Assembly: GCA_025935545.1 (NCBI GenBank)
Contig: JAICVB010000004.1
Location: forward strand, 1 to 34,291
Source of the DNA: Gemmatimonadales bacterium
Lineage (GTDB): Bacteria > Gemmatimonadota > Gemmatimonadetes > Gemmatimonadales > GWC2-71-9
Length of the DNA stretch: 34,291 nt
Direction of reading: 5' to 3'
The translations under genes and the position numbers were made by a program. The notes beneath the pieces are model-generated. The model worked only from the letters and a program-made list of their open reading frames with translations. It ran no database searches and had not been told where the DNA came from. Of the stretch, positions 1,240-20,322 are shown piece by piece (within the stretch, counting starts at the first letter, position 1; every line of letters starts with the position of its first letter).

Positions 1240-2552
1240 GCCGCCGGTCCGTCCGCGCCGGCGCCGTCGCGCTGGGATTGCTCCTCGGCTGCGCCAAGAT
1301 CGAGGCGCCCCCGGGCGCGCCCCCCGATGCGGCCGCCCCGCGGCTCCTCGGGACCTCGCCCGACTCCCTTGCCGTGATGCCCGGCTTCAGCGGTGAGGTG
1401 ACCTTCACCTTCGACGAGGTGATCTCGGAGGGGAGCGTCCCGAGCCAGGGAACGGGAACCAGCGATCTGGAGCGGCTGGTGATCCTGTCACCCACCACGC
1501 GACCGCCCGTCGTGCGGTGGCACCGCGACCGCATCACGGTGCGCCCGCGCGAAGGCTGGGTGGCCAACCGCGTGTACCGAGTCCAGCTCCTCCCCGGCGT
1601 GAGCGACCTCCGGAACAACCGCCAGCAGGGCGGCGGCGCCATCGTGACGTTCACGACCGGTGCGCCGCGGCCGACGCTGACCCTGGAGGGAGCGGCACAG
1701 GACTGGGTCGCCGGCCGCGCTGCGGCGGGCGCGCTGATCGAGGCCGTGCACGCCCCCGACAGCCTGGTGTACCGCGCGCTCGCGGACTCGAGCGGTGACT
1801 TCCAGCTGGGTCCCCTGCCGGCGGGCGCCTACACCGTCTTCGCGACGATCGACCAGAACCACAACATGGTCCGCGACCCGCGCGAGGCGTTCGACTCGGC
1901 CCATGTAGCGGCGGGGGCGACGAGCGCGGGGACGCTCTGGGCCTTCCCGCACGACACCGTCGGACCGCGCATCCAGACGATCGCGGTGCTCGACAGCGCG
2001 TCCGCCAGCGTCACGGTGTCCCAGCCGCTCGACCCGGCGCAGCGCCTCACGCCCGCCGACGTGTCCGTACGCCTCCTGCCCGACTCCTCGCCGGTCGCGG
2101 TCCGGTCCCTGCTCCCCCCCGAGGCGGACGACAGCGCCTTCGGCCGGCGCGCCGACACGACGGGCCGCGCGGACACCGCGCGCCGGGCCGACACCACGAG
2201 CCGAGCCGACTCGAGTCGTCGGCGACAGCCCCCGGCCGCGAAGCCCGCCGACACCCCGGCGCGGGCCCGCGCGGACTCGACCCGCCGGCCGGCGCGGCCG
2301 GTGCTCGCTACCCGGCTCACCCTCAGGATCGTCGGCCGGTGGACGCCGGGTGCCCGCTATGTCGTGACGATCCGAGGGCTCCGGAACGTGAATGGCGTCG
2401 CCGCCGACGCCACGGCTGGTGTTGCCGTGCCCGCCGCGCCGAAGCCGGTCGCTCCGCCGGACAGCACCGGCGCCGCGACATCACCGCCCGACAGCACGGG
2501 GGTGCGTCCCGCCGCTCGCGACACCACGCCAGCCCGCCCCGCGCCGCGGTGA
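1233..2552 (+). CDS. Ig-like (Big_5/SbsA-like) domain lipoprotein
   Basis: GTG start at 1233 gives VLSRRSVRAGAVALGLLLGCAK with lipobox LLGC; body has 'SLAVMPGFSGEVTFTFDEVISEGS...PPVVRWHRDRITVRPREGWVANRVYRVQLLPGVSDLRNN', typical of the bacterial Ig-like fold. Overlaps valS stop by 7 bp. Confidence 0.8.
   Translation: MLSRRSVRAGAVALGLLLGCAKIEAPPGAPPDAAAPRLLGTSPDSLAVMPGFSGEVTFTFDEVISEGSVPSQGTGTSDLERLVILSPTTRPPVVRWHRDRITVRPREGWVANRVYRVQLLPGVSDLRNNRQQGGGAIVTFTTGAPRPTLTLEGAAQDWVAGRAAAGALIEAVHAPDSLVYRALADSSGDFQLGPLPAGAYTVFATIDQNHNMVRDPREAFDSAHVAAGATSAGTLWAFPHDTVGPRIQTIAVLDSASASVTVSQPLDPAQRLTPADVSVRLLPDSSPVAVRSLLPPEADDSAFGRRADTTGRADTARRADTTSRADSSRRRQPPAAKPADTPARARADSTRRPARPVLATRLTLRIVGRWTPGARYVVTIRGLRNVNGVAADATAGVAVPAAPKPVAPPDSTGAATSPPDSTGVRPAARDTTPARPAPR
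2145..2216 (+). repeat. Four degenerate 18-bp in-frame tandem units (RRADTT/GRADTA/RRADTT/SRADSS)
   Basis: Direct reading of codons 2145-2216 within the lipoprotein gene. Confidence 0.8.
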
Positions 2553-3886
2553 CCGACCCTCGGCGGAGCCTTCCGTCGGTGGATGCGCTCCAGCGGGATC
2601 CCCGCGTGCTCGCCGCCATCCGCGAGACGATCGCGGCGGCGCGACGCAGTCGGGCCGGGCCACCCCCCAACTGGGCCTCGGAAGTCGCCGAGCGGTATCG
2701 GCGCGCGAGTGACCCGTCGCTGCGCCCGGTGCTCAACGCCACCGGCGTGGTGCTGCACACGAACCTGGGACGCGCGCCGCTCGCGCGTCAGGCCGTTGAC
2801 GCCATGGTCGCGGTCGCCGCCGGCTACAGCTCCCTCGAGTTCGATCTCCCGTCGGGCTCGCGCGGCCGGCGCAGCGAGCACGCCCGCGCCATCCTCCGCC
2901 GCCTCACGGGCGCCGAGGATGCGCTGGTGGTGAACAACGCGGCGGGCGCGCTGGTCCTGGCGCTCGATGCGCTCGGCCAGGGAGGCGAGATCGCGGTTTC
3001 CCGCGGCGAGCTGATCGAAATCGGCGGCTCCTTCCGCATTCCCGACATCCTGGCGCGAAGCGGCGCCCGCCTCCACGAGATCGGCACCACCAACCGCACC
3101 CACCTCGATGACTACGCCCGCGCGCTCCGGCACGGGGTGCGCGCCCTGCTGATCGTCCACCGCTCGAATTTCGCCCAGCGCGGGTTCGTGGCGACGCCAG
3201 AGCCGCGCGCGATCGCGGAGCTCGCGCGCGCGGCGGGTGTCCCCTGCATCCATGATCTCGGAAGCGGGCTGCTGGCCGATCTCTCCCCCGCCGGGCTGAC
3301 GGGCGAGCCGAGGATTCCCGACGCCGTGGCGGCCGGAGCCGACATCGTCATCTTCAGCGGAGACAAGCTGCTGGGAGGCCCGCAGGCGGGATGCATGGTC
3401 GGCGCGAGCGCCGCGATCGGCCGCTGCCGCGAGAGTCCCTTCGCGCGCGCCGTCCGGGCCGACAAGCTCACGCTCGCGGCGCTGGGGGCGACGCTCCGGC
3501 TCTATGAGGGTGGCGCCGACGCGCTCCGGGAGATTCCGGTCCTGGCGATGCTCCTCGCCGCGCCGGCGGAGCTGGAGCTTCGGGCGCGCGAGCTGGCGGG
3601 GTGTTGCCCGCGGTCGCTCAGGACCGAGCTCGTCCCCGGCTCGTCCGCGGTTGGTGGCGGGGCCTTTCCCGATGCGCAGCTCCCCACCACCCTCGTGGCC
3701 CTGAGCCACGAAACGCTCGGAGCCGAAGCGCTGGCGCTTCGGCTCCGCACCGGTGACCCGGCGATGGTGGCGCGAGTGGGCGGCGGCCGCGTTCTCCTCG
3801 ATCCGCGCACCCTGGCCCTGGAGGACTTCCCGGCGGCCGCGGCGGCGCTGGCCGCCGCCGCCGAGCCGGGCGACCTGCCTCAGTAG
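2549..3886 (+). CDS. selA: L-seryl-tRNA(Sec) selenium transferase
   Basis: GTG start at 2549 overlapping the upstream TGA (GTGA); VLNATGVVLHTNLGRAPL, YSSLEFDL..GSRGRR, SGDKLLGGPQAG (PLP-lysine region) are SelA signatures. Confidence 0.93.
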   Translation: MTDPRRSLPSVDALQRDPRVLAAIRETIAAARRSRAGPPPNWASEVAERYRRASDPSLRPVLNATGVVLHTNLGRAPLARQAVDAMVAVAAGYSSLEFDLPSGSRGRRSEHARAILRRLTGAEDALVVNNAAGALVLALDALGQGGEIAVSRGELIEIGGSFRIPDILARSGARLHEIGTTNRTHLDDYARALRHGVRALLIVHRSNFAQRGFVATPEPRAIAELARAAGVPCIHDLGSGLLADLSPAGLTGEPRIPDAVAAGADIVIFSGDKLLGGPQAGCMVGASAAIGRCRESPFARAVRADKLTLAALGATLRLYEGGADALREIPVLAMLLAAPAELELRARELAGCCPRSLRTELVPGSSAVGGGAFPDAQLPTTLVALSHETLGAEALALRLRTGDPAMVARVGGGRVLLDPRTLALEDFPAAAAALAAAAEPGDLPQ

Positions 3887-10552: not shown

Positions 10553-11671
10553 ATGGCCATGACCCGACTGCTGCTGCTCGCACTTCTCGCGACGACGCTC
10601 GGCTGCGAACGAGCCGGGCGTCGCCCCATTGCCCGCGACACGGCACCCCCCTCGCACGCGGCGGGACGTGACACCCTTGCCGCGCCGTCCATCCCTCCGG
10701 TGCCGGCAGATTCGATGACCATCCGCATGAGCGCGACGGGAGACAGCGCCCGGGCGGACACCGCCCTTCCGGCGCTCCATACCGGCGGGGCCGAGTCGGC
10801 CGGCGACAGCGCGACGGTGAGCATCGAGCCGCTGGGCCCGGTGCGCGGCGGCGTGATCGCCGCCACCATCGAGGCGGCCGGCGGTTCGACGCCCCAGTGC
10901 ACCTGGAAATCGGCGCCCCTGCCCTGTTACGCGAGCGGCAGCGCCATCCGTGCCATTATCCCGCTCCCGGCGGACGATCCCGCCGGCGGGTTCCTGCTGA
11001 CCATGGACGCACGCGGCCGCTCCGCACGCCGCACGATTGTGGTGGGTGACCGCGATTTCGGCCGTCAGGTCGTCCTCCTCGATTCGGCACACTACGCGCT
11101 CGTGCGGCGCGGCAAGGAGATCGCGCGGGATGCGCGGGCCATCCGGCAGGTACTGCAGTCGGAGTCTCCGGACGCGCGGTGGTCCGGACGGTGGCTCGAT
11201 CCGGGCGGGGGGGCGCGGGCGGAGGGGTACGGCACCGAGCGGTTCTACTACCGTGCCTCCGACTCGAGCCGCGTGATGTCGCTGCGCCCGTCCGCACGCA
11301 CGACCGGCGACTTCGGCGCGGACACCACGGCGATCGGGTCGAACGACACGCCGTCCTGGCGGCACGCCGGCGTGGACATCGCGCTTGCACGCGGCGCGCC
11401 GGTCCGGGCCGCCGCCGCCGGCATCGTCGCGGCGGCGTCGGAGTACGTGCTGACCGGCCGGACCGTGATCCTCGACCACGGGCAGGGGATCCATACCGCC
11501 TACTTCCATCTCGACACCATCACCGTCCGCCCCGGTGACGTCGTTCGCCGTGGTGAGCGTCTCGGCCGGGTCGGCAGCACCGGGCTCGCCACGGGTCCCC
11601 ACCTCCACTATGGCGTCTACGTCCACGGCCGGGACGTCGACCCGGCTGCCTGGCACCGGATCGCCCGATAA
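10553..11671 (+). CDS. M23-family peptidase (LytM-like), probable lipoprotein
   Basis: MAMTRLLLLALLATTLGCERAG (lipobox LGC) and C-terminal 'WRHAGVDIALARGAPVRAAAAGIVAAA...VILDHGQGIHTAYFHLDTITVRPGDVVRRGERLGRVGSTGLATGPHLHYGVYV' (HxxxD and HLH motifs). Confidence 0.92.
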   Translation: MAMTRLLLLALLATTLGCERAGRRPIARDTAPPSHAAGRDTLAAPSIPPVPADSMTIRMSATGDSARADTALPALHTGGAESAGDSATVSIEPLGPVRGGVIAATIEAAGGSTPQCTWKSAPLPCYASGSAIRAIIPLPADDPAGGFLLTMDARGRSARRTIVVGDRDFGRQVVLLDSAHYALVRRGKEIARDARAIRQVLQSESPDARWSGRWLDPGGGARAEGYGTERFYYRASDSSRVMSLRPSARTTGDFGADTTAIGSNDTPSWRHAGVDIALARGAPVRAAAAGIVAAASEYVLTGRTVILDHGQGIHTAYFHLDTITVRPGDVVRRGERLGRVGSTGLATGPHLHYGVYVHGRDVDPAAWHRIAR

Positions 11672-11765: not shown

Positions 11766-12791
11766 ATGTCGATCAAGGCGAAGTTTGAGCTGACCACCGC
11801 GACCCTGCTGGCCCTGGCCGGGGTCTTCTTCCTCACCACCGCCGCGGTCCGCCGGCCCCCGGCGCTCGAGCGCGTCGATTTCGGCGCGCGACGGACCGCG
11901 ACGGCGCCCGCGTGGGACGCTCGCGTGGCGCCCGTCGCGGATGCCGCGATCAAGGAATTCCGGATCCCGATTACCCACGACACCGTCGAGATCGCGAACG
12001 GCGTCCGCTACGTCGGCTGGACCTTCGGCGGCACCGTGCCGGGCCCGGTCATCCGCGTTCGCGAGGGCGACCTCGTCCGCATCCGGCTGGTCAACGAGGC
12101 GAAGGGGATGCCCCACTCGATCGACTTCCACGCGGCACGGCTCCCCATGGACCACGCCATGAAGTCCATCGCGCCGGGCGACTCCCTCAGCTTCGAGTTC
12201 ACGGCGACCACGCCGGGCGCCTTCATGGTGCACTGCGGGACGGCCCCGCTGCTGATGCACATCGCGCAGGGCATGTACCTGGCGATCATCGTGGATCCGA
12301 AGGACGGCTGGCCCGGGCACGTCGACAAGGAGTTCGTGCTGGTCCAGAGTGAGTTCTATCCCAGGCCCTCGGCCGCCGACACGTCGGTGCGCGAGGGTGA
12401 CTGGGACGCCATGCTCGCCGGCACGCCCACCTACGTGACCTTCAATGGCCGGGCCGACCAGTATCGGGCCGCCCCGCTCCAGGTCGACGAGGGCGACAAG
12501 GTCCGCTTCTTCGTCGTGAACGCCGGGCCGAGCCGTGACAGCGACTTCCACATCGTCGGCGCCATCTTCGACACCGTCTATCCCGACGGCGACCCGGACC
12601 ACGCGCTGCACGGCCTGCAGACCCAGATGGTCCCGGTGGGTGGCGGCGCCGTGTTCGAGACGACCTTCGCCAGGGGTCGGAGCGGGGAGGGCCACTACGC
12701 CTTCGTGACCCACTCCTTCGCCGATGCGACCCGAGGGGCGGTCGGCGTCATCGAGGTGGGGCATCCGAGGCTGATGGCAGCGGGGCACTGA
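11766..12791 (+). CDS. Two-domain copper oxidase, copper nitrite-reductase (NirK)-like
   Basis: ATG 11766: MSIKAKFELTTATLLALAGVFFLTTAA. Candidate Cu ligands: HSIDFH (12114-12131), MVHC...MHIAQGM (12231-12275), DFHIVGA (12549), VTHSFADATRGAVG (12711). No HCH trinuclear-cluster motif. Confidence 0.78.
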   Translation: MSIKAKFELTTATLLALAGVFFLTTAAVRRPPALERVDFGARRTATAPAWDARVAPVADAAIKEFRIPITHDTVEIANGVRYVGWTFGGTVPGPVIRVREGDLVRIRLVNEAKGMPHSIDFHAARLPMDHAMKSIAPGDSLSFEFTATTPGAFMVHCGTAPLLMHIAQGMYLAIIVDPKDGWPGHVDKEFVLVQSEFYPRPSAADTSVREGDWDAMLAGTPTYVTFNGRADQYRAAPLQVDEGDKVRFFVVNAGPSRDSDFHIVGAIFDTVYPDGDPDHALHGLQTQMVPVGGGAVFETTFARGRSGEGHYAFVTHSFADATRGAVGVIEVGHPRLMAAGH

Positions 12792-12794
12792 ACC

Positions 12795-13001
12795 ATGCAG
12801 ACGCCCTTTCCTTCCCTGGCACCGGCGCTCACCGTCAACGATCTCCTCCGGGAGCGGCCGGAGGCGGCCGCAGTCCTCAATCGGCTCGGCATCGACACCT
12901 GCTGCGGCGGCTCCCTCACTCTCGCCGACGCCGCGGCCTCGGTCGGCCTGCCGCTGGCGGAGCTGCTCGCGGCGGTGCGGCCGCCGCTGGGGGCCCCGTG
13001 A
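12795..13001 (+). CDS. Standalone DUF542 protein (N-terminal domain of Ric/ScdA/YtfE family)
   Basis: LTVNDLLRERPEAAAVLNRLGIDTCCGGSLTLADAAASVGLPLAELLAAV: DTCCGG motif of DUF542; no hemerythrin domain follows. Confidence 0.87.
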   Translation: MQTPFPSLAPALTVNDLLRERPEAAAVLNRLGIDTCCGGSLTLADAAASVGLPLAELLAAVRPPLGAP

Positions 13002-13330
13002 ACGCCTACGATCCCCGCGCCATCGCCGCGGCGGCGGTGTCGGCGGGCCACGACCGGCCGGCCGTCGCGCTGGCGCACGACACGGATGACGGACGGCTGG
13101 TCGTCTTCCGCATCGCGCCCGGCCAGCGGGTGCCCCCGCACACCAGCACGTCGAGCGTGTTCATGACGGTCGTCTCGGGCACCGGCTTCGTGCTCGGCGG
13201 TGACGGGGAGCGCGCGGTGCGGGCCGGGGATCTGCTCGCGCTCGCGCCGCGGGAGCAGCACGGCATGCGCGCCGCGGACGACGAGCTGGTGATCGCGGCG
13301 CTGATCACGCCGCGGCCCGGCAGCCGCTGA
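12998..13330 (+). CDS. Cupin-domain protein
   Basis: GTG start overlapping previous stop (GTGA); 'VFRIAPGQRVPPHTSTSSVFMTVVSGTGFVLGGDGERAVRAGDLLALAPREQHGMRA' cupin pattern. Confidence 0.82.
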   Translation: MNAYDPRAIAAAAVSAGHDRPAVALAHDTDDGRLVVFRIAPGQRVPPHTSTSSVFMTVVSGTGFVLGGDGERAVRAGDLLALAPREQHGMRAADDELVIAALITPRPGSR

Positions 13331-13773
13331 TGGACTGGTTCGTCCGCTGGTTCATCCGGGCGAGCCTCGCGTGGCTCGCCGTCGGCATCACGCTGGGGCT
13401 CTGCATGGCGGCGCATCCGCAGTGGATCATCTACCGCCCGGCCCACGTGCACATGAACCTGGTCGGCTTCGTCACGATGATGATCTTCGGCGTGGCCTAC
13501 CATGTCATTCCCCGCTTCACCGGCCACCCGCTCTGGAGCTCCTCGCTGCCCGCCTCTCACTGGTGGCTGTCCAACGTGGGCCTCGCCGGCATGACCATCG
13601 GGTTCGTGCTCCAGCCGCATCCGGGCATGCATGGCGCGACCTTCCTCGTGGCCGGCGGACTCCTCGAGACGCTGGGCGCCTACCTGTTCGTGTACAACAT
13701 CTGGCGCACGCTCGGAGGAACGCTTCCGTCGGCCGCTCCCGCGCCGCGCCGTCCGCTTCCCACCCGCGCATGA
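13330..13773 (+). CDS. Small multi-TM heme-copper-oxidase-subunit-I-like membrane protein
   Basis: MDWFVRWFIRASLAWLAVGITLGLCMAAHPQWIIYRPAHVHMNLVGFVTMMIFGVAYHVIPRFTGHPLW...: His-rich TM helices resembling the CcoN/NorB type. TGATG overlap with cupin stop. Confidence 0.6.
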   Translation: MDWFVRWFIRASLAWLAVGITLGLCMAAHPQWIIYRPAHVHMNLVGFVTMMIFGVAYHVIPRFTGHPLWSSSLPASHWWLSNVGLAGMTIGFVLQPHPGMHGATFLVAGGLLETLGAYLFVYNIWRTLGGTLPSAAPAPRRPLPTRA

Positions 13774-15176
13774 ACGGCCTTCCGGAAATCATTCAGGGCG
13801 GCATGGGGATCGGCGTGTCCGGCTGGCGCCTGGCACGTGCAGTCTCCTCGGCCGGCCAGCTTGGCGTGGTGTCGGGCACGGCGGTCGAATCGCTGTTCGT
13901 GCGGCGCCTGCAGGACGGCGACGCCGACGGCCATCTGCGCCGCGCCATGGCGGCCTTTCCGCTCCCCGGCGTGGCTGCCGATGCGCTCCGCCGCTACTAC
14001 CTGCGGGGCGGGCGTCTCGCCGGCACGGCGTATCGCATGCTCCCGATGTATCGCCTCGGCGCGTCGCGGGCTCGCGAGAGCATCACCGTGCTGGCAAGCT
14101 TCGTCGAGGTGTGGCTCGCGCGCGAGGGGCACGCCGGGCCGGTGGGCGTCAACCTGCTGACGAAGGTGCAGCTGCCGAATCTCGCCGCGCTCTACGGGGC
14201 GATGCTCGCCGGCGCCGCGGTCGTGCTGATGGGCGCCGGCATCCCGCGGGACATCCCCGCCGTCCTGGACGCCTTTGCCGAGGGCCGTCCGGCCTCGCTT
14301 CGGCTGGACGTGGAGGGGCTGAGCGAGGGCCGCGACGTCCGCGCGAGATTCGACCCCGCCGATTACTTCGATTCGCCCCCCGCGCTCGCGCGGCCGGCCT
14401 TCCTCGCGATCGTGGCGAGCAACTCACTTGCGACGATGCTGGCGCGGAAGGCCAGCGGACGCGTCGACGGATTCGTCATCGAGGGGCCGACCGCCGGTGG
14501 CCACAACGCGCCCCCGCGCAGCGCGGCGCCGCTCAATGAGCGCGGCGAGCCGGTCTATGGCGAGCGGGATGTCGTGGACCTCGACAAGCTGAGGGAGCTG
14601 GGCCTCCCGTTCTGGCTCGCGGGCGGCACGGGATCGCCGGGAGCGCTCCGCGCCGCGTGGGCCGCGGGCGCCGCGGGAATCCAGGTCGGAACGCTCTTTG
14701 CCTACGCCGACGAGTCGGGCCTCGCACCCGAGCTCAGGCAGTCCGTCCTCGAGCATGTGGCGCGCGGGGAGGTGGACGTATTCACCGATCCGCGCGCGTC
14801 GCCGACCGGGTATCCGTTCAAGGTGGTGCGCTGGCCGGCTGATCCCGCGGCAGCGCTGCCGGAGCGGACCCGGATCTGCGACATCGGAGGCCTGCGCGTG
14901 CCCTACCAGCAGCCGGACGGCAGGATCGGCTACCGCTGCGCGGCGGAGCCGGTGGACGCGTACGTGCGGAAGGGCGGGCGAATCGAGGATACGGAGGGGC
15001 GCCGCTGTCTCTGCAATGCGCTGCTCGCGAATGTGGGCCAGGCGCAGCTGAGGGACGACGGTCGGGTCGAGCCCGCCCTGATCACGAGTGGCGACGATTT
15101 GAAGGCGCTTGGCTCCTTCCTTCGAGGACGACGCGGCTACGCGGCCGGAGACGTGCTCGACTACCTGCTCGGGTGA
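13770..15176 (+). CDS. Nitronate monooxygenase-like (2-nitropropane dioxygenase family) flavoprotein
   Basis: ATG 13770 overlapping previous stop (ATGA); MNGLPEIIQGGMGIGVSGWRLARAVSSAGQLGVVSGTAVE; VIEGPTAGGHNAPP; GLPFWLAGGTGSPGALRAAWAAGAAGIQVGTLFAYADESG. Confidence 0.85.
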   Translation: MNGLPEIIQGGMGIGVSGWRLARAVSSAGQLGVVSGTAVESLFVRRLQDGDADGHLRRAMAAFPLPGVAADALRRYYLRGGRLAGTAYRMLPMYRLGASRARESITVLASFVEVWLAREGHAGPVGVNLLTKVQLPNLAALYGAMLAGAAVVLMGAGIPRDIPAVLDAFAEGRPASLRLDVEGLSEGRDVRARFDPADYFDSPPALARPAFLAIVASNSLATMLARKASGRVDGFVIEGPTAGGHNAPPRSAAPLNERGEPVYGERDVVDLDKLRELGLPFWLAGGTGSPGALRAAWAAGAAGIQVGTLFAYADESGLAPELRQSVLEHVARGEVDVFTDPRASPTGYPFKVVRWPADPAAALPERTRICDIGGLRVPYQQPDGRIGYRCAAEPVDAYVRKGGRIEDTEGRRCLCNALLANVGQAQLRDDGRVEPALITSGDDLKALGSFLRGRRGYAAGDVLDYLLG

Positions 15177-15225: not shown

Positions 15226-17148
15226 TCAGTCGCCCGCGGCGGGCGACGGCCGGAGCCCGGTAAGGCACTCGGCAAGCCCGTAGGCCGGCACCATGTCGTG
15301 CCACGGCGGGGGAGCCGGGATGCGGAGCGTGTCCCCCCCGCCGCCGGCCGTGACGGTAAACCCGGTCCACCGGCCCCGATGCGCCGCTTCCCGGAGCGAC
15401 GGGTGCGCCCGTCCATACCACGCCGGCACGCACCGCGCGCTCACCAGCACGCCCGTGATACCAGACCGCGCCAGCCAGCGCGAGTGCCACGCCGTCCACG
15501 GCGACCCGAAGAAGGTGCGGAGCTCGACCATGCGTTGCGCCGCGTCCGGCTCGGCGTGGTTGGCGTACTGCAGGTCGGCGACATAGAAGGGCCGTCCGGT
15601 GTAGGCCGTCAGGCTGAATCCCCGTAGCGGGCGGCGGTAGTCCTCCGCCGGATCCGCCAGGTCGCTTGCGATCAGCACGCCGCCCCGGTCCGGCAGCCGC
15701 TGGAGCACCTCGAGCAGCCCCACATCCTCCTCCGCCTGGTACCCCGCCGCCGGCGCGGCGAGCGACGGCACGATGAACAGCAGCGGCGACGCCGCCGTCA
15801 TCCAGCCCACTCCGTGCGCGATCCGCAGTCGTCCGCCGCGCAGGCGCCGCGCGCTCTCGATCAGCCCGGCGATGCTCAGCAGCGCGACGAGCAGGCGCAA
15901 CGGCTGCAGCGAGATGGCAAAGTCGGCGCGTTGAGTGGGATCGGCCCCCAGCTGGACCATCCGGCTCACGATCTCCGGGCGGACCGGGATCCGCACCAGC
16001 GCCCAGAATGCGCCGAGGACCAGCACGCCGGCCGCCGCCGTGAGGAGGAGCGTCCGGACGGCGAGGTTGCGGCGAAGGTAGCGCCGCGCCGCGAGCAGGG
16101 CGCCGAGCAGGAGCGCCACCGGCACGAGCCGATCCTCCACGAAGGGAAACTCGGTTCGCCCCGGCGCCCACGCCGGGGTGCCGAAGCGCCCGTCGATGTG
16201 CGGCAAGGCAGCCAGCAGCCCCGCCGCGAGCATCGCGGCCGCGAGCGCCGCCGTGAGCACGCGCCCGCTGCGCGGCCGGAATCCCGGCACGCCCGCCATG
16301 TAGCCAAGGCCGGTGAGCCCGGCGAGCAGGCCGTAGCCGACGAAGGATTGCGGCTTGATCATGACAAGCGCCCCGAGACCCGCGGCGGCCAGGAAGGTTC
16401 CTGCGGGCCAGGGCTCGGCGTCGAGGAGGAGCGCCAGCGCCGCCATGCCCGCGGCGATGGCCTGGAAGGTGTTGAGGGCGATGTCCGGCGAGAACGTCCA
16501 CAGCACCGAACTGGTCCGGCACGACGTGAGGACGAGACAGTACGCCGTGGTCGGCAGGGTGAAGGCCACGCCCGGGAGCGCCATCACGATGCCGGTCGCG
16601 GCCACCGCCGCGGCGGCGCTCACTCCCCGGGTGGAGAGGAGCCGCACGCCGGCGATGGCGAAGGTAACGGTGCACAGCAGCGGGACCAGGGCAAACAACA
16701 CAGCCCCCGGATCGACGCCGAGGCTGCGCCGGGCGGCGCCGGCAAACCAGGCGGGCCCGACGTGGTACGTGATCGGGACGCCCGCGTAGTCGAGGGACCT
16801 GCCGAGGCCGCCCGTCCGCGCGATGGCCTGAGCGTGGCCCAGAGCGTACTGCCAGTCAACGTTCCAGACGAGCGCCGGGTGGTGGCCGAGGACCCGGATC
16901 GCCTCGAGCTCCGTCGTCGCGAGCGCGGCCAGGGCCATGCCGACGAGGCCCATCACCGGGAACGCGCTCCACGGAGCACCAATCCCCCGGCGCACCGCCG
17001 CCGCGACCGCCCATCCTGTCCCGCCCGCCCAGGCCGCCAGCGCCACGACGAGCACGAGGCTGCGGAGGCTGTCGGGAATCGCCGGCGCCGCGGCGACGGC
17101 CACCGCGCCCAGGACAGCCGACGCCAGGGCCGCGCGTGTCGGCGTCAC
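15226..17148 (-). CDS. Large multi-TM membrane protein, possibly GT39/ArnT-like glycosyltransferase
   Basis: Long frame with many hydrophobic segments (e.g. FAISLQPLRLLVALLSIAGLI, LLLTAAAGVLVLGAFWALV); start placed at GTG 17148 (VTPTRAALASAVLGAVAVAAAP). Confidence 0.6.
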   Translation of the reverse strand: MTPTRAALASAVLGAVAVAAAPAIPDSLRSLVLVVALAAWAGGTGWAVAAAVRRGIGAPWSAFPVMGLVGMALAALATTELEAIRVLGHHPALVWNVDWQYALGHAQAIARTGGLGRSLDYAGVPITYHVGPAWFAGAARRSLGVDPGAVLFALVPLLCTVTFAIAGVRLLSTRGVSAAAAVAATGIVMALPGVAFTLPTTAYCLVLTSCRTSSVLWTFSPDIALNTFQAIAAGMAALALLLDAEPWPAGTFLAAAGLGALVMIKPQSFVGYGLLAGLTGLGYMAGVPGFRPRSGRVLTAALAAAMLAAGLLAALPHIDGRFGTPAWAPGRTEFPFVEDRLVPVALLLGALLAARRYLRRNLAVRTLLLTAAAGVLVLGAFWALVRIPVRPEIVSRMVQLGADPTQRADFAISLQPLRLLVALLSIAGLIESARRLRGGRLRIAHGVGWMTAASPLLFIVPSLAAPAAGYQAEEDVGLLEVLQRLPDRGGVLIASDLADPAEDYRRPLRGFSLTAYTGRPFYVADLQYANHAEPDAAQRMVELRTFFGSPWTAWHSRWLARSGITGVLVSARCVPAWYGRAHPSLREAAHRGRWTGFTVTAGGGGDTLRIPAPPPWHDMVPAYGLAECLTGLRPSPAAGD

Positions 17149-17373
17149 GCCACCTCGAGCAACGGGAGCCGGTTGCACCGCCGACAGAGCAATCCCCGCC
17201 TCCCGTCCGACCGCTGGTGATGCGCTCGATCCCCGTCGCCCGGCCCGGCAGGGGGACGCCAGTCGGAAGATGCACCAAACGGCCGGGCGCGCCAGCAGGG
17301 GCACTCTCGGGCCGCGGCGGCTTGGGGCGGGGCGGGTTGCGCCGACTCGGGGGGTGACCGAGCTTTGAGGCCC

Positions 17374-17460
17374 GGCGTGGTGGCAGAGTGGTTTAATGCA
17401 GCGGTCTTGAAAACCGCCGTACCCTAGCGGGTACCGTGAGTTCGAATCTCACCCACGCCG
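17374..17460 (+). tRNA. tRNA-Ser(UGA)
   Basis: Acceptor GGCGTGG/CCACGCC, anticodon arm GCGGT-CTTGAAA-ACCGC (anticodon TGA), long variable arm (TACCCTAGCGGGTA), T arm GTGAG-TTCGAAT-CTCAC. Confidence 0.96.
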
Positions 17461-17462
17461 CT

Positions 17463-17939
17463 TCATTCGCGGGCCAGCGTAAAGGTTCCGGCCGCGGTGA
17501 CGCTGTCGCCCGTCGCTTTCACCTCATAGCGACATTCGGCCAGGCCCGCGCCGGTCGTGGCCGGGCCGCCGGACGGCGGCGATGGCGTCGACGCGGTGAA
17601 GGCACAGGCCTCGGCGCGATAGCTCAGCGACGTCGCCGAGACCGCGGCGCCGACCACCGGCACCCGGCCGGTGCGAAGCGTCAGGACCCCGACCGGGATG
17701 CATGTGGTGCTCACCACGCCCGAGAATCCCCCCACGTCATTGCTCGGCTCGCGGACGAAGCCGACGGTGCCGGTCTCGTAGCACTTGACCTCGCTCCCGG
17801 CAACCGACGTCGACACGATGAAGCGATACGTCCAGCCCCCGAGTGACGACCCGAGGCTCGGCGCCGTCGGCTCCGTGCAGGCCGCGAGCGCCAGCATGGC
17901 AAGCAGTGCGAAGGAGCGATTCAGCCGCTCAGGCATCAT
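17463..17939 (-). CDS. Hypothetical lipoprotein
   Basis: MMPERLNRSFALLAMLALAACTEPTAPS with lipobox LAAC; rest uncharacterised. Confidence 0.6.
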   Translation of the reverse strand: MMPERLNRSFALLAMLALAACTEPTAPSLGSSLGGWTYRFIVSTSVAGSEVKCYETGTVGFVREPSNDVGGFSGVVSTTCIPVGVLTLRTGRVPVVGAAVSATSLSYRAEACAFTASTPSPPSGGPATTGAGLAECRYEVKATGDSVTAAGTFTLARE

Positions 17940-17984
17940 AGACCCTGCCGTCGTACGAGGGATTCGAGCTGCGGTGAACTTCTC

Positions 17985-20180
17985 ATGAGAGCGGCCTTCC
18001 GCATCAGTGTCGCCCTGCTCTGCTGCGTGCCGCCCACCGGTGCGCTGGCGCAGGTCAGCCGGCCGCCCGCCGTCGTGAGACCGCGGGCGGGCATGGTCGT
18101 CACGGAATCGGTCCGCATTGAGCCTGGCCGGTGGATGCTCCCGGCGCCGACGGACACCGCCGCCATCACCGTCCGCGGCTCAAATATCACCCTGGACCTG
18201 AGCGGCGTCACCCTTCTCGGCACTGACCCCGGCGCCCCGCCCGACCAGGCCCGGGGAGTCGCCATCCTCATCGATGGCGGCGCCAACATCCGGGTGCGCG
18301 CAGGCCGGGTTCGCGGATACCGGGTCGGAATCCTTGCGCGCGGGACTCGCGGCCTCACGCTCGACGACAACGACCTGAGCTACAACTGGAAGCCCCGCCT
18401 CTTCAGCGAGCGGGAGCATGAGAGTCTGGTGGACTGGCTCTCCCATCACCACAACGAGAAGGACGAGTGGCTCCGCTTCGGCGCCGGCGCCTACCTGAGC
18501 GACGTGACGGGGGGCGAGATCCGCGGCAACCGGATCGAGCAGGGCATGGAAGGCCTCATGCTCGTGCGCTCCGACAGCGTCCTCATCTGGAACAACACCA
18601 TCGAGTTCAACTCGGGCGTCGGGATCGGGCTCTACCGCTCGTCGGCGAACACCATCGTCCACAATCACGCGAGCTACAACGTCCGCGGCTACAGCCACGG
18701 GTTCTACCGACGAGGCCAGGATTCCGCCGACCTGCTGCTCTACGAACAGAGCTCCCGCAACGTAGTCGCCTTCAATTCCATGACGCACGGCGGGGACGGA
18801 CTGTTTCTGTGGGCCGGGCAGTCCACCATGGACACGGGCGCCGGGGGAGCGAACGACAATCTGTTCTACGCGAACGATTTCAGCTTCGCCCCGACCAACG
18901 CCATGGAGGCGACGTTCAGCCGGAACCGGTTCATCGGCAACCGCGCGACCGGCTCGGACAACGGTCTCTGGGGAGGGTACAGCTTCGCTTCCGAGATCCG
19001 CGACAACACTTTCGGGGGCAACCGGACCGGGATCGCGATCGAGCACGGCCAGGACAACCTGATCGCCGGCAACCGCTTCGACGGCGACTCGGTGGCGATC
19101 AACCTCTGGGCCAATCCGATCGAGCCGTCGGACTGGGGCTATCCGAGGCATCGCGACACGCGGAGCCGCGACTACCGCATCGTCGGCAACCGGTTCACGG
19201 GGAACCGCGTCGCCGTCCGCGTCGCCGGCAGCGCGAATGTCGGCATCCGCGGGAACACGGTGACCTCGGTGGACACGGTGCTCGCTCGGCGCGACAGCTC
19301 GGATGTGACCATGACGGCGGATCCCGCGCCACCCTCCGCGGCGGACAGCTCCCTTCCCTCCCCGCGACCCGGCGGGCTCCGTATCGCCGACGATCGGCTT
19401 GCCGCGCGGGACCGGTCGGCCATCCTCGTGGACGAATGGGGCCCGTATGACTGGCGCTTTCCGCGGCTGTGGCCGGTCGCCGCGGCAACCGACTCGGTGA
19501 ACCGCCTCAGAGTTCTGGGCCCGCCGGGACGCTGGCGGGTCGTGAGCCGACGAGGCGTCACATCGCTGTCAAAGACGCGCGGAGCCGTCGGCGACACGCT
19601 CGCAGTAGTGCCCGTCGGCGCGTCGTCCGCCGACTGGGAGGTAATCCTCGAGTACCGTGGCGCCGAAACCCTCTCTCAACGGGGCGTTCGGCGGCGCGCC
19701 GGCAGCCCGGTCCGCTTCGGCTATTCCCGGTTCGACCCGCTCCGCGACTGGCAGGTCGCCTTCTTCGCCTGGGCGGACAGCACGGATCCGCGGCACCGGC
19801 CGGAGCGCTTCGAGGCACTGCTGCGCACCTCCCCACTCGTCACCCGTCGCGAGCGTCGGCTCGACTACATGTGGTATCGCCCGACCATCCCGGCCCTTCC
19901 TGCCGAGCGGTTCGCCGCGGTTGCGACGACGACGGTGTCGCTCGCACCCGGCACGTACACCCTCCGGACCATCAGCGATGACGCGGTGCGGGTCCGCGTG
20001 GATGGCCGACTCGTGATCGACCACTGGGCGCCGCACGAGTCCGCCGTGGACCATGCGGCGATCACCGGCGGACGGCACGAGATCCGGGTCGAATACGTCC
20101 AGGTCGATGGCTGGGTCGAGCTGCGGGCGGAAATCGTGCGCGGAAGCGACGTCTCGGAGGGCTCACCCGGCCCGCACTGA
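17985..20180 (+). CDS. Secreted right-handed parallel beta-helix protein with C-terminal PA14-like domain
   Basis: Signal peptide MRAAFRISVALLCCVPPTGALAQ; repeated short strands with N ladders (GGEIRGNRIEQGMEGLMLVRSDSVLIWNNTIEFNSGVGIGLYRSSANTIVHNHASYN...); C-term 'LAPGTYTLRTISDDAVRVRVDGRLVIDHWAPHES' is PA14-like. Confidence 0.82.
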   Translation: MRAAFRISVALLCCVPPTGALAQVSRPPAVVRPRAGMVVTESVRIEPGRWMLPAPTDTAAITVRGSNITLDLSGVTLLGTDPGAPPDQARGVAILIDGGANIRVRAGRVRGYRVGILARGTRGLTLDDNDLSYNWKPRLFSEREHESLVDWLSHHHNEKDEWLRFGAGAYLSDVTGGEIRGNRIEQGMEGLMLVRSDSVLIWNNTIEFNSGVGIGLYRSSANTIVHNHASYNVRGYSHGFYRRGQDSADLLLYEQSSRNVVAFNSMTHGGDGLFLWAGQSTMDTGAGGANDNLFYANDFSFAPTNAMEATFSRNRFIGNRATGSDNGLWGGYSFASEIRDNTFGGNRTGIAIEHGQDNLIAGNRFDGDSVAINLWANPIEPSDWGYPRHRDTRSRDYRIVGNRFTGNRVAVRVAGSANVGIRGNTVTSVDTVLARRDSSDVTMTADPAPPSAADSSLPSPRPGGLRIADDRLAARDRSAILVDEWGPYDWRFPRLWPVAAATDSVNRLRVLGPPGRWRVVSRRGVTSLSKTRGAVGDTLAVVPVGASSADWEVILEYRGAETLSQRGVRRRAGSPVRFGYSRFDPLRDWQVAFFAWADSTDPRHRPERFEALLRTSPLVTRRERRLDYMWYRPTIPALPAERFAAVATTTVSLAPGTYTLRTISDDAVRVRVDGRLVIDHWAPHESAVDHAAITGGRHEIRVEYVQVDGWVELRAEIVRGSDVSEGSPGPH

Positions 20181-20224
20181 GCCTTGCGCCACCTGCCTCC
20201 CCGGGCGATTTTCCGCGCACTCCG

Positions 20225-20314
<90 letters not shown>

Positions 20315-20322
20315 CTCTTCCG

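Follow-up and report, generated by a model that had tools for sequence, protein, structure and literature searches.

The DUF542 protein YtfE uses the vicinal cysteine pair of this domain to hand electrons to a di-iron site (PMC9052748). The standalone DUF1858 gene bsl7085 of Bradyrhizobium, located beside nnrR and near nirK, is strongly NnrR-dependent (PMC6710368). In Thermus thermophilus, DrpA and DrpB are DUF2249 and DUF1858-DUF2249-DUF2249 proteins, respectively, of nitrate respiration clusters, and DrpB acts in nitrate-dependent regulation (PMC6282519). The nitric oxide (NO) reductase eNOR is defined by a Gln-for-Tyr change (PMC8756737), and nosZ occurs in Gemmatimonadota, which are abundant in soil (PMC10581226). 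In a 34,291-nt window (the whole stretch of DNA analysed, from contig JAICVB010000004.1 of a Gemmatimonadales bacterium), we examined a five-gene cassette encoding, in order, a copper nitrite reductase (CuNIR)-like protein, a standalone DUF542 protein, a small cupin, a short relative of heme-copper oxidase (HCO) subunit I, here called mini-HCO, and a nitronate monooxygenase (NMO)-like protein. Our proposal is that a membrane module of mini-HCO, the DUF542 dithiol protein and the cupin forms the core of a nitrite/NO operon, in which mini-HCO would act as an oligomeric heme protein that, together with its dithiol partner, reduces, scavenges or senses NO; we give this reading a probability of roughly one half. 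The earlier note on this DNA, made from the sequence alone, listed mini-HCO as one item of five, whereas the evidence makes it the centre of the cassette.

Mini-HCO and its cassette

The mini-HCO gene (13330..13773, plus strand) encodes a four-helix protein of 147 aa. A single-sequence search gave weak matches to the cbb3 oxidase subunit CcoN at three separate places, and a profile of 50 mini-HCO homologues matched CcoN with an E-value of 9e-18, hitting each of the three arcs of the subunit separately (arc 1, 13-155; arc 2, 215-248, at 6.6 bits only; arc 3, 308-403 and 420-468). The AlphaFold model has four helices (pLDDT 94.8), and its top 50 Foldseek matches were all HCO subunits of the cbb3, ba3, aa3 and NO reductase (NOR) types, with TM-scores of up to 0.78 by query length. 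From the profile, AlphaFold and Foldseek matches, mini-HCO is predicted to correspond to one arc (one third) of HCO subunit I. H39 and H41 of its HxH motif (H39-V40-H41; 13444..13452, plus strand) are invariant in the 50 sequences, which span several phyla, and fall on the HxH heme-ligand motif in helix 10 of CcoN. The helix-bundle fold and HxH of HCO subunit I are present for one four-helix arc only, and this 147-aa protein has neither the full set of twelve helices nor the CuB/FeB ligands that helices 6-7 carry. As a single arc, it is likewise not the complete catalytic HCO-type subunit with a non-heme metal site that defines an NO reductase, although a homo-oligomer could supply further metal ligands. 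Searches of the open-access literature found neither a four-helix HCO unit nor DUF542 together with HCO genes; within that literature, mini-HCO is apparently an undescribed single-arc HCO relative with a phylum-spanning association with DUF542/DUF1858 and N-oxide genes.

Two gene rearrangements bear on this assignment. In a Nitrospinaceae locus (L137, 8001-8984), a single open reading frame of 327 aa joins mini-HCO in frame to a pair of DUF1858-family domains, the second carrying GCFTCP, which is a direct physical link between the mini-HCO and DUF1858 families. At another locus (L122:2227-3507), a 426-aa, 12-helix protein contains three tandem matches to the mini-HCO profile (37, 32 and 18 bits), and its gene adjoins DUF59, single-unit mini-HCO and DUF542 genes. 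Homologues of the triplicated protein occur at L035:10795-12201, L061:5186-6646 and L062, and Pfam matches are absent or weak for the L122 protein as well. The top four Foldseek matches of the L122 protein were HCO subunits over the full length, and its model matches full-length CcoN; since this AlphaFold model is of low confidence (pLDDT 56.5), the match is only supportive. The presence of single-unit and tandem three-unit forms in one operon makes L122 a test case for the origin of the three-arc HCO fold.

Much of what the earlier note had read in the cassette held up: five co-directional genes, four tight junctions implying one operon, a CuNIR in a nitrite/NO context and no NO reductase among the five genes. 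CuNIR and DUF542 are separated by a 3-bp gap (12791/12795), and the following junctions are a GTGA overlap between DUF542 and cupin (12998-13001), TGATG between cupin and mini-HCO (13328-13332) and ATGA between mini-HCO and the NMO-like gene (13770-13773), which suggests co-transcription. No notable promoter or terminator was seen on the plus strand 5′ or 3′ of the operon. Pfam backs every label above its gathering cut-off (Cu-oxidase_3, 52.6 bits; ScdA_N/DUF542, PF04405, 42.9 bits against 32.5; Cupin_2, 37.3 bits; COX1, 38.7 bits; NMO, 56 against 28 bits).

The CuNIR-like gene (11766..12791, plus strand; ATG start, TGA stop at 12791) encodes 341 aa. The nearest solved structure is Geobacillus GtNIR (3wkq; E-value 1.4e-58, 265 residues aligned), and the alignment identifies H117, C157, H165 and M170 as type-1 copper ligands, H122, H156 and H316 as type-2 ligands, and D120, H262 and V264 as catalytic residues, roles established for CuNIRs; in GtNIR, the counterpart of H262 is the His of FH-x-V. 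The protein scored 201 bits with TIGR02376 (copper nitrite reductase), below the cut-off of 296, as do many Gemmatimonadota CuNIR homologues. Because of the hydrophobic signal or anchor helix at its N-terminus, it is probably exported.

The DUF542 gene (12795..13001, plus strand) encodes 68 aa and is the only DUF542 gene in its genome assembly. Its vicinal cysteines, C36-C37 in IDTCCGG, are encoded at 12900..12905 (plus strand), as read from the sequence. It consists of ScdA_N alone, without the C-terminal di-iron hemerythrin domain of RIC/YtfE proteins, and scored 30 bits with TIGR03652 (cut-off 205). The cupin gene (12998..13330, plus strand; GTG start) encodes 110 aa; its barrel motifs contain H48 and H88 (kept in 28/28 and 23/28 aligned sequences, respectively) but not the complete 3-His-1-Glu metal set. 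The last gene (13770..15176, plus strand) encodes a TIM-barrel flavoprotein-like protein of 468 aa, of the NMO/FabK type, with homologues of 61-66% identity. A nitronate- or nitrite-related role had been suggested for it but is unsupported: the protein matches both NMO and FabK models (the latter at 43 bits, below that model's cut-off), its best solved relatives are FabK and chains named ‘2-nitropropane dioxygenase’, and nothing ties it to nitroalkanes. Four cysteines (C370, C390, C413 and C415) lie in an additional C-terminal region; because these are common to all ten aligned sequences, a metal or Fe-S site there is possible.

Gene neighbourhoods across phyla

Across 298 Gemmatimonadota genomes, we found 68 strong matches to mini-HCO (type A) and 53 weaker ones (type B), which keep HxH but have H58 replaced by Trp; for 16 of the 53 type B genes, a type A gene is no more than 3 kb away. 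In the genomes carrying type A, 25 of 41 DUF542 genes are within 3 kb of mini-HCO, compared with 0.07 expected, so the arrangement in the window is not due to chance. One counterpart, in a genome of another family (L098, genome G048), has CuNIR-DUF542-cupin-mini-HCO followed by a type B copy, with 60% identity between its CuNIR and that of the window, and tight junctions (DUF542/cupin ATGA, cupin/mini-HCO TGATG). Other loci have DUF542-cupin-mini-HCO-NMO (L089) or, in several genera, NirK and a formylglycine-generating enzyme (FGE)-like gene, in some cases with SCO or another gene, and then DUF542-cupin-mini-HCO (L082, G080, G159, G170 and G196). The same trio order therefore occurs with two CuNIR subfamilies, scoring ∼200 bits in the window and L098 and at least 350 bits in G080, G159 and G170. 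An FGE-like gene, sometimes with SCO, is found 3′ of nirK in many Gemmatimonadota CuNIR operons (L082, L117 from Roseisolibacter sp. H3M3-2, G080, G159 and G196).

Within the window's own family, one locus has multicopper oxidase-cupin-mini-HCO-NMO-CuNIR (L066), and a genome of the same genus (G214) is without type A mini-HCO. Mini-HCO is near nos genes in at least six loci (L035, L036, L045, L057, L065 and L069). A CuNIR-like gene was present in 44/66 genomes with type A and 49/232 without (odds ratio 7.5, ignoring kinship). The earlier note had named a neighbourhood confined to close strains as a refuting result; its reading passes this test for sub-blocks of the cassette, which recur in another family and in several genera, but its idea of a self-contained five-gene unit did not survive: the exact five-gene order was found at no other locus seen. 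The conserved unit is mini-HCO with DUF542/DUF1858 and cupin, around which CuNIR and NMO come and go.

A scan of the genomes of 84,980 species gave 323 places encoding mini-HCO relatives, of which the best 80 belong to Gemmatimonadota, Nitrospirota, records titled ‘Deltaproteobacteria’, Thermoleophilia and other Actinobacteria, Bacillota and one Nitrospinaceae. We counted neighbours at 45 loci outside Gemmatimonadota, which are phylogenetically non-independent, by our own open reading frame calling and clustering. Small DUF1858/DUF542 proteins were encoded at 26 loci (seven of the CCGG type), Crp/Fnr at 21, NifU at 12, ferredoxin at 11, cupin at 10 and Mrp at 8, and for the DUF542/DUF1858, cupin and mini-HCO groups the identity of representatives was borne out by Pfam. 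At five ‘Deltaproteobacteria’ loci (L108, L121, L127, L128 and L131), a CoxB-like cupredoxin and a full COX1 protein, in which GHxSQQ replaces the oxidase GHPEVY, are encoded divergently to the mini-HCO operon; this is the Gln-for-Tyr substitution characteristic of eNOR (PMC8756737). A GHxSQQ, eNOR-type HCO is also encoded at G065:C4:43058-44398.

Outside Gemmatimonadota, a palindrome, ATGAY-N4-RTCAT (here the FNR-like box), precedes the mini-HCO operon at 26 of 43 loci (0.06 expected), mostly 67-86 bases 5′ of the start. It resembles the HcpR-type box TTGAC-N4-GTCAA (PMC1274295) and, judged by its sequence, is a probable Crp/Fnr-type operator. The palindrome is perfect and often in two copies in L108-L151, and genome-wide G299 and G300 have 17-18 sites each, compared with 5-8 sites when the pattern is reversed as a control. 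The Crp/Fnr neighbours could not be assigned as HcpR, NnrR or DNR, since they matched generic CRP/FNR models only, below cut-off.

Proposed NO handling and competing explanations

In the mechanism that we propose, exported CuNIR would turn nitrite into NO, and mini-HCO, likely as a homo-oligomer (or with the type B paralogue where present), would rebuild an HCO-like three-arc ring, bind heme via HxH and meet this NO at the membrane. It would then reduce, scavenge or sense NO, with electrons or a signal from the DUF542 cysteine pair, and such NO handling would spare Fe-S proteins. DUF542/DUF1858 beside or fused to mini-HCO suggests YtfE-like electron delivery with mini-HCO as the partner, and electrons could plausibly come from the NMO-like flavoprotein. 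The NO link of mini-HCO is well supported by gene context; its heme binding, oligomeric state, direction of electron flow and activity on NO we infer. The proposal draws on the complete active site of CuNIR, DUF542 near mini-HCO far above chance, the trio order with two CuNIR subfamilies, the neighbours in other phyla, the eNOR-type pairs, the L137 fusion, the FNR-like box, the tandem triplication, and the precedents of YtfE and bsl7085.

Several observations weigh against it. The odds ratio of 7.5 for co-occurrence of mini-HCO and CuNIR lacks correction for phylogeny, and a CuNIR-like gene lies no more than 5 kb from just 20 of the 68 type A genes; therefore, many mini-HCOs work without one. 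H58 of mini-HCO is Gln in one clade and is lost in type B. In addition, neither the window operon nor any of the 74 Gemmatimonadota operons tested is preceded by the FNR-like box, and those 74 upstream regions have no shared palindrome of any kind.

The best surviving alternative, though in our view an unlikely one, is that mini-HCO is a non-catalytic membrane receptor for NO, O2 or redox state that signals via DUF542/DUF1858 and cupin to Crp/Fnr. A Crp/Fnr gene adjoins mini-HCO in 21 of the 45 non-Gemmatimonadota loci and the FNR-like box lies upstream in other phyla, but Crp/Fnr may merely regulate the mini-HCO operon, and the window cassette has no regulator gene. The regulatory role of Thermus DrpB (PMC6282519) and the protein with its domain order beside mini-HCO in L061/L062 also favour a sensor, whereas the Fe-S carriers and eNOR in these operons fit defence equally.

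A more specific form of the proposed NO handling, which we regard as doubtful, is that a mini-HCO trimer is a minimal HCO-like NO-removing enzyme that supplies the missing NOR step of those Gemmatimonadota that have CuNIR and NosZ yet lack a NOR. Among nirK-carrying Gemmatimonadota, often no NO reductase is recognised. No NOR-type HCO was found in nine of ten near-complete mini-HCO genomes, by PF00115 matches only, a model whose detection of cNOR/qNOR is unproven there; G065 alone among the ten carries an eNOR-type HCO. The window genome, placed in Gemmatimonadota by its relatives and 67% complete as assembled, encodes NosZ and, besides mini-HCO, only aa3/caa3-type oxidases, and both full HCOs keep the oxidase Tyr. 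Hcp was not found in this 67% complete assembly. If real, the trimer would represent an extant, single-unit version of the HCO fold, and the 12-helix tandem relative a fused stage. Widespread, unnamed and tied to DUF542/DUF1858, mini-HCO would be a candidate for the missing NO reductase step, or for NO sensing.

Mini-HCO and its partners could instead assist the insertion of heme or copper during assembly of CuNIR, NosZ, eNOR or oxidases, which would account for its position beside three different N-oxide metalloenzymes (CuNIR, the Nos cluster and eNOR) and for SCO and FGE-type genes within several CuNIR operons. We consider this improbable, since most Nitrospirota loci have no CuNIR, Nos cluster or eNOR alongside and Fe-S carriers are ill-suited to copper or heme insertion. 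Ranking lower again is defence against oxygen, in which anaerobes and microaerophiles would use the module to shield their Fe-S proteins from O2: the HCO fold, the Fe-S carriers and Fnr-like regulation would suit O2 too, and many carriers are Nitrospirota and ‘Deltaproteobacteria’, but mini-HCO is associated with CuNIR, Nos genes and eNOR, and no oxygen-defence gene was recognised among its recurrent neighbours. That separately useful N-oxide genes merely cluster in Gemmatimonadota without a joint mechanism is very improbable: the exact five-gene order is in no second genome and G214 has no type A mini-HCO, but the tight junctions are kept in L098, the trio occurs with two CuNIR subfamilies and recurs in other phyla, and L137 has the gene fusion.

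Surroundings of the cassette and comparison with known systems

Upstream of the cassette, an M23 peptidase gene ends at 11671, and a SelA (L-seryl-tRNA selenium transferase) gene lies at 2339-3886, making selenoprotein synthesis possible in this organism. Downstream, an opposite-strand gene (15226-17304, minus) encodes a hydrophobic protein of 692 aa with no Pfam match. A further ‘NosD’ match (17985-20180) was ruled out as a Nos cluster because it is a beta-helix and PA14 protein; its gene is flanked by two tRNA-Ser genes (TGA and GCT; 17374-20315).

Compared with known systems, the CuNIR shares all type-1 and type-2 ligands and the Asp/His/Val catalytic trio with GtNIR, but falls below the TIGR02376 cut-off, in a subfamily of its own. 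The DUF542 protein has the domain and vicinal cysteines of YtfE/ScdA/RIC in only 68 aa, without hemerythrin, and by analogy mini-HCO may take hemerythrin's partner role beside it. DrpB has the same domain order as a protein adjoining mini-HCO genes in L061/L062, whereas the available part of the Thermus report mentions no mini-HCO with DrpA/DrpB (PMC6282519). NnrS, a heme-copper membrane protein of NO regulons, shares the NO-linked context, and its Pfam model weakly matches the mini-HCO part of the L137 fusion (E-value 0.0097, below cut-off), but at 371 positions it is more than twice the length of mini-HCO. With cNOR, qNOR and eNOR, mini-HCO has in common the HCO fold, and at five loci an eNOR-type pair is encoded divergently to its operon, but it is no 12-helix catalytic subunit. 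Its four helices superpose on CcoN and the HCO superfamily (TM-score 0.78 with 8smr_E, by query length), with HxH on the helix-10 ligands; in contrast, mini-HCO is one third of their length, lacks the CuB His set, the cross-link Tyr and adjoining oxidase partner subunits, and has DUF542/DUF1858 and cupin as its neighbours.

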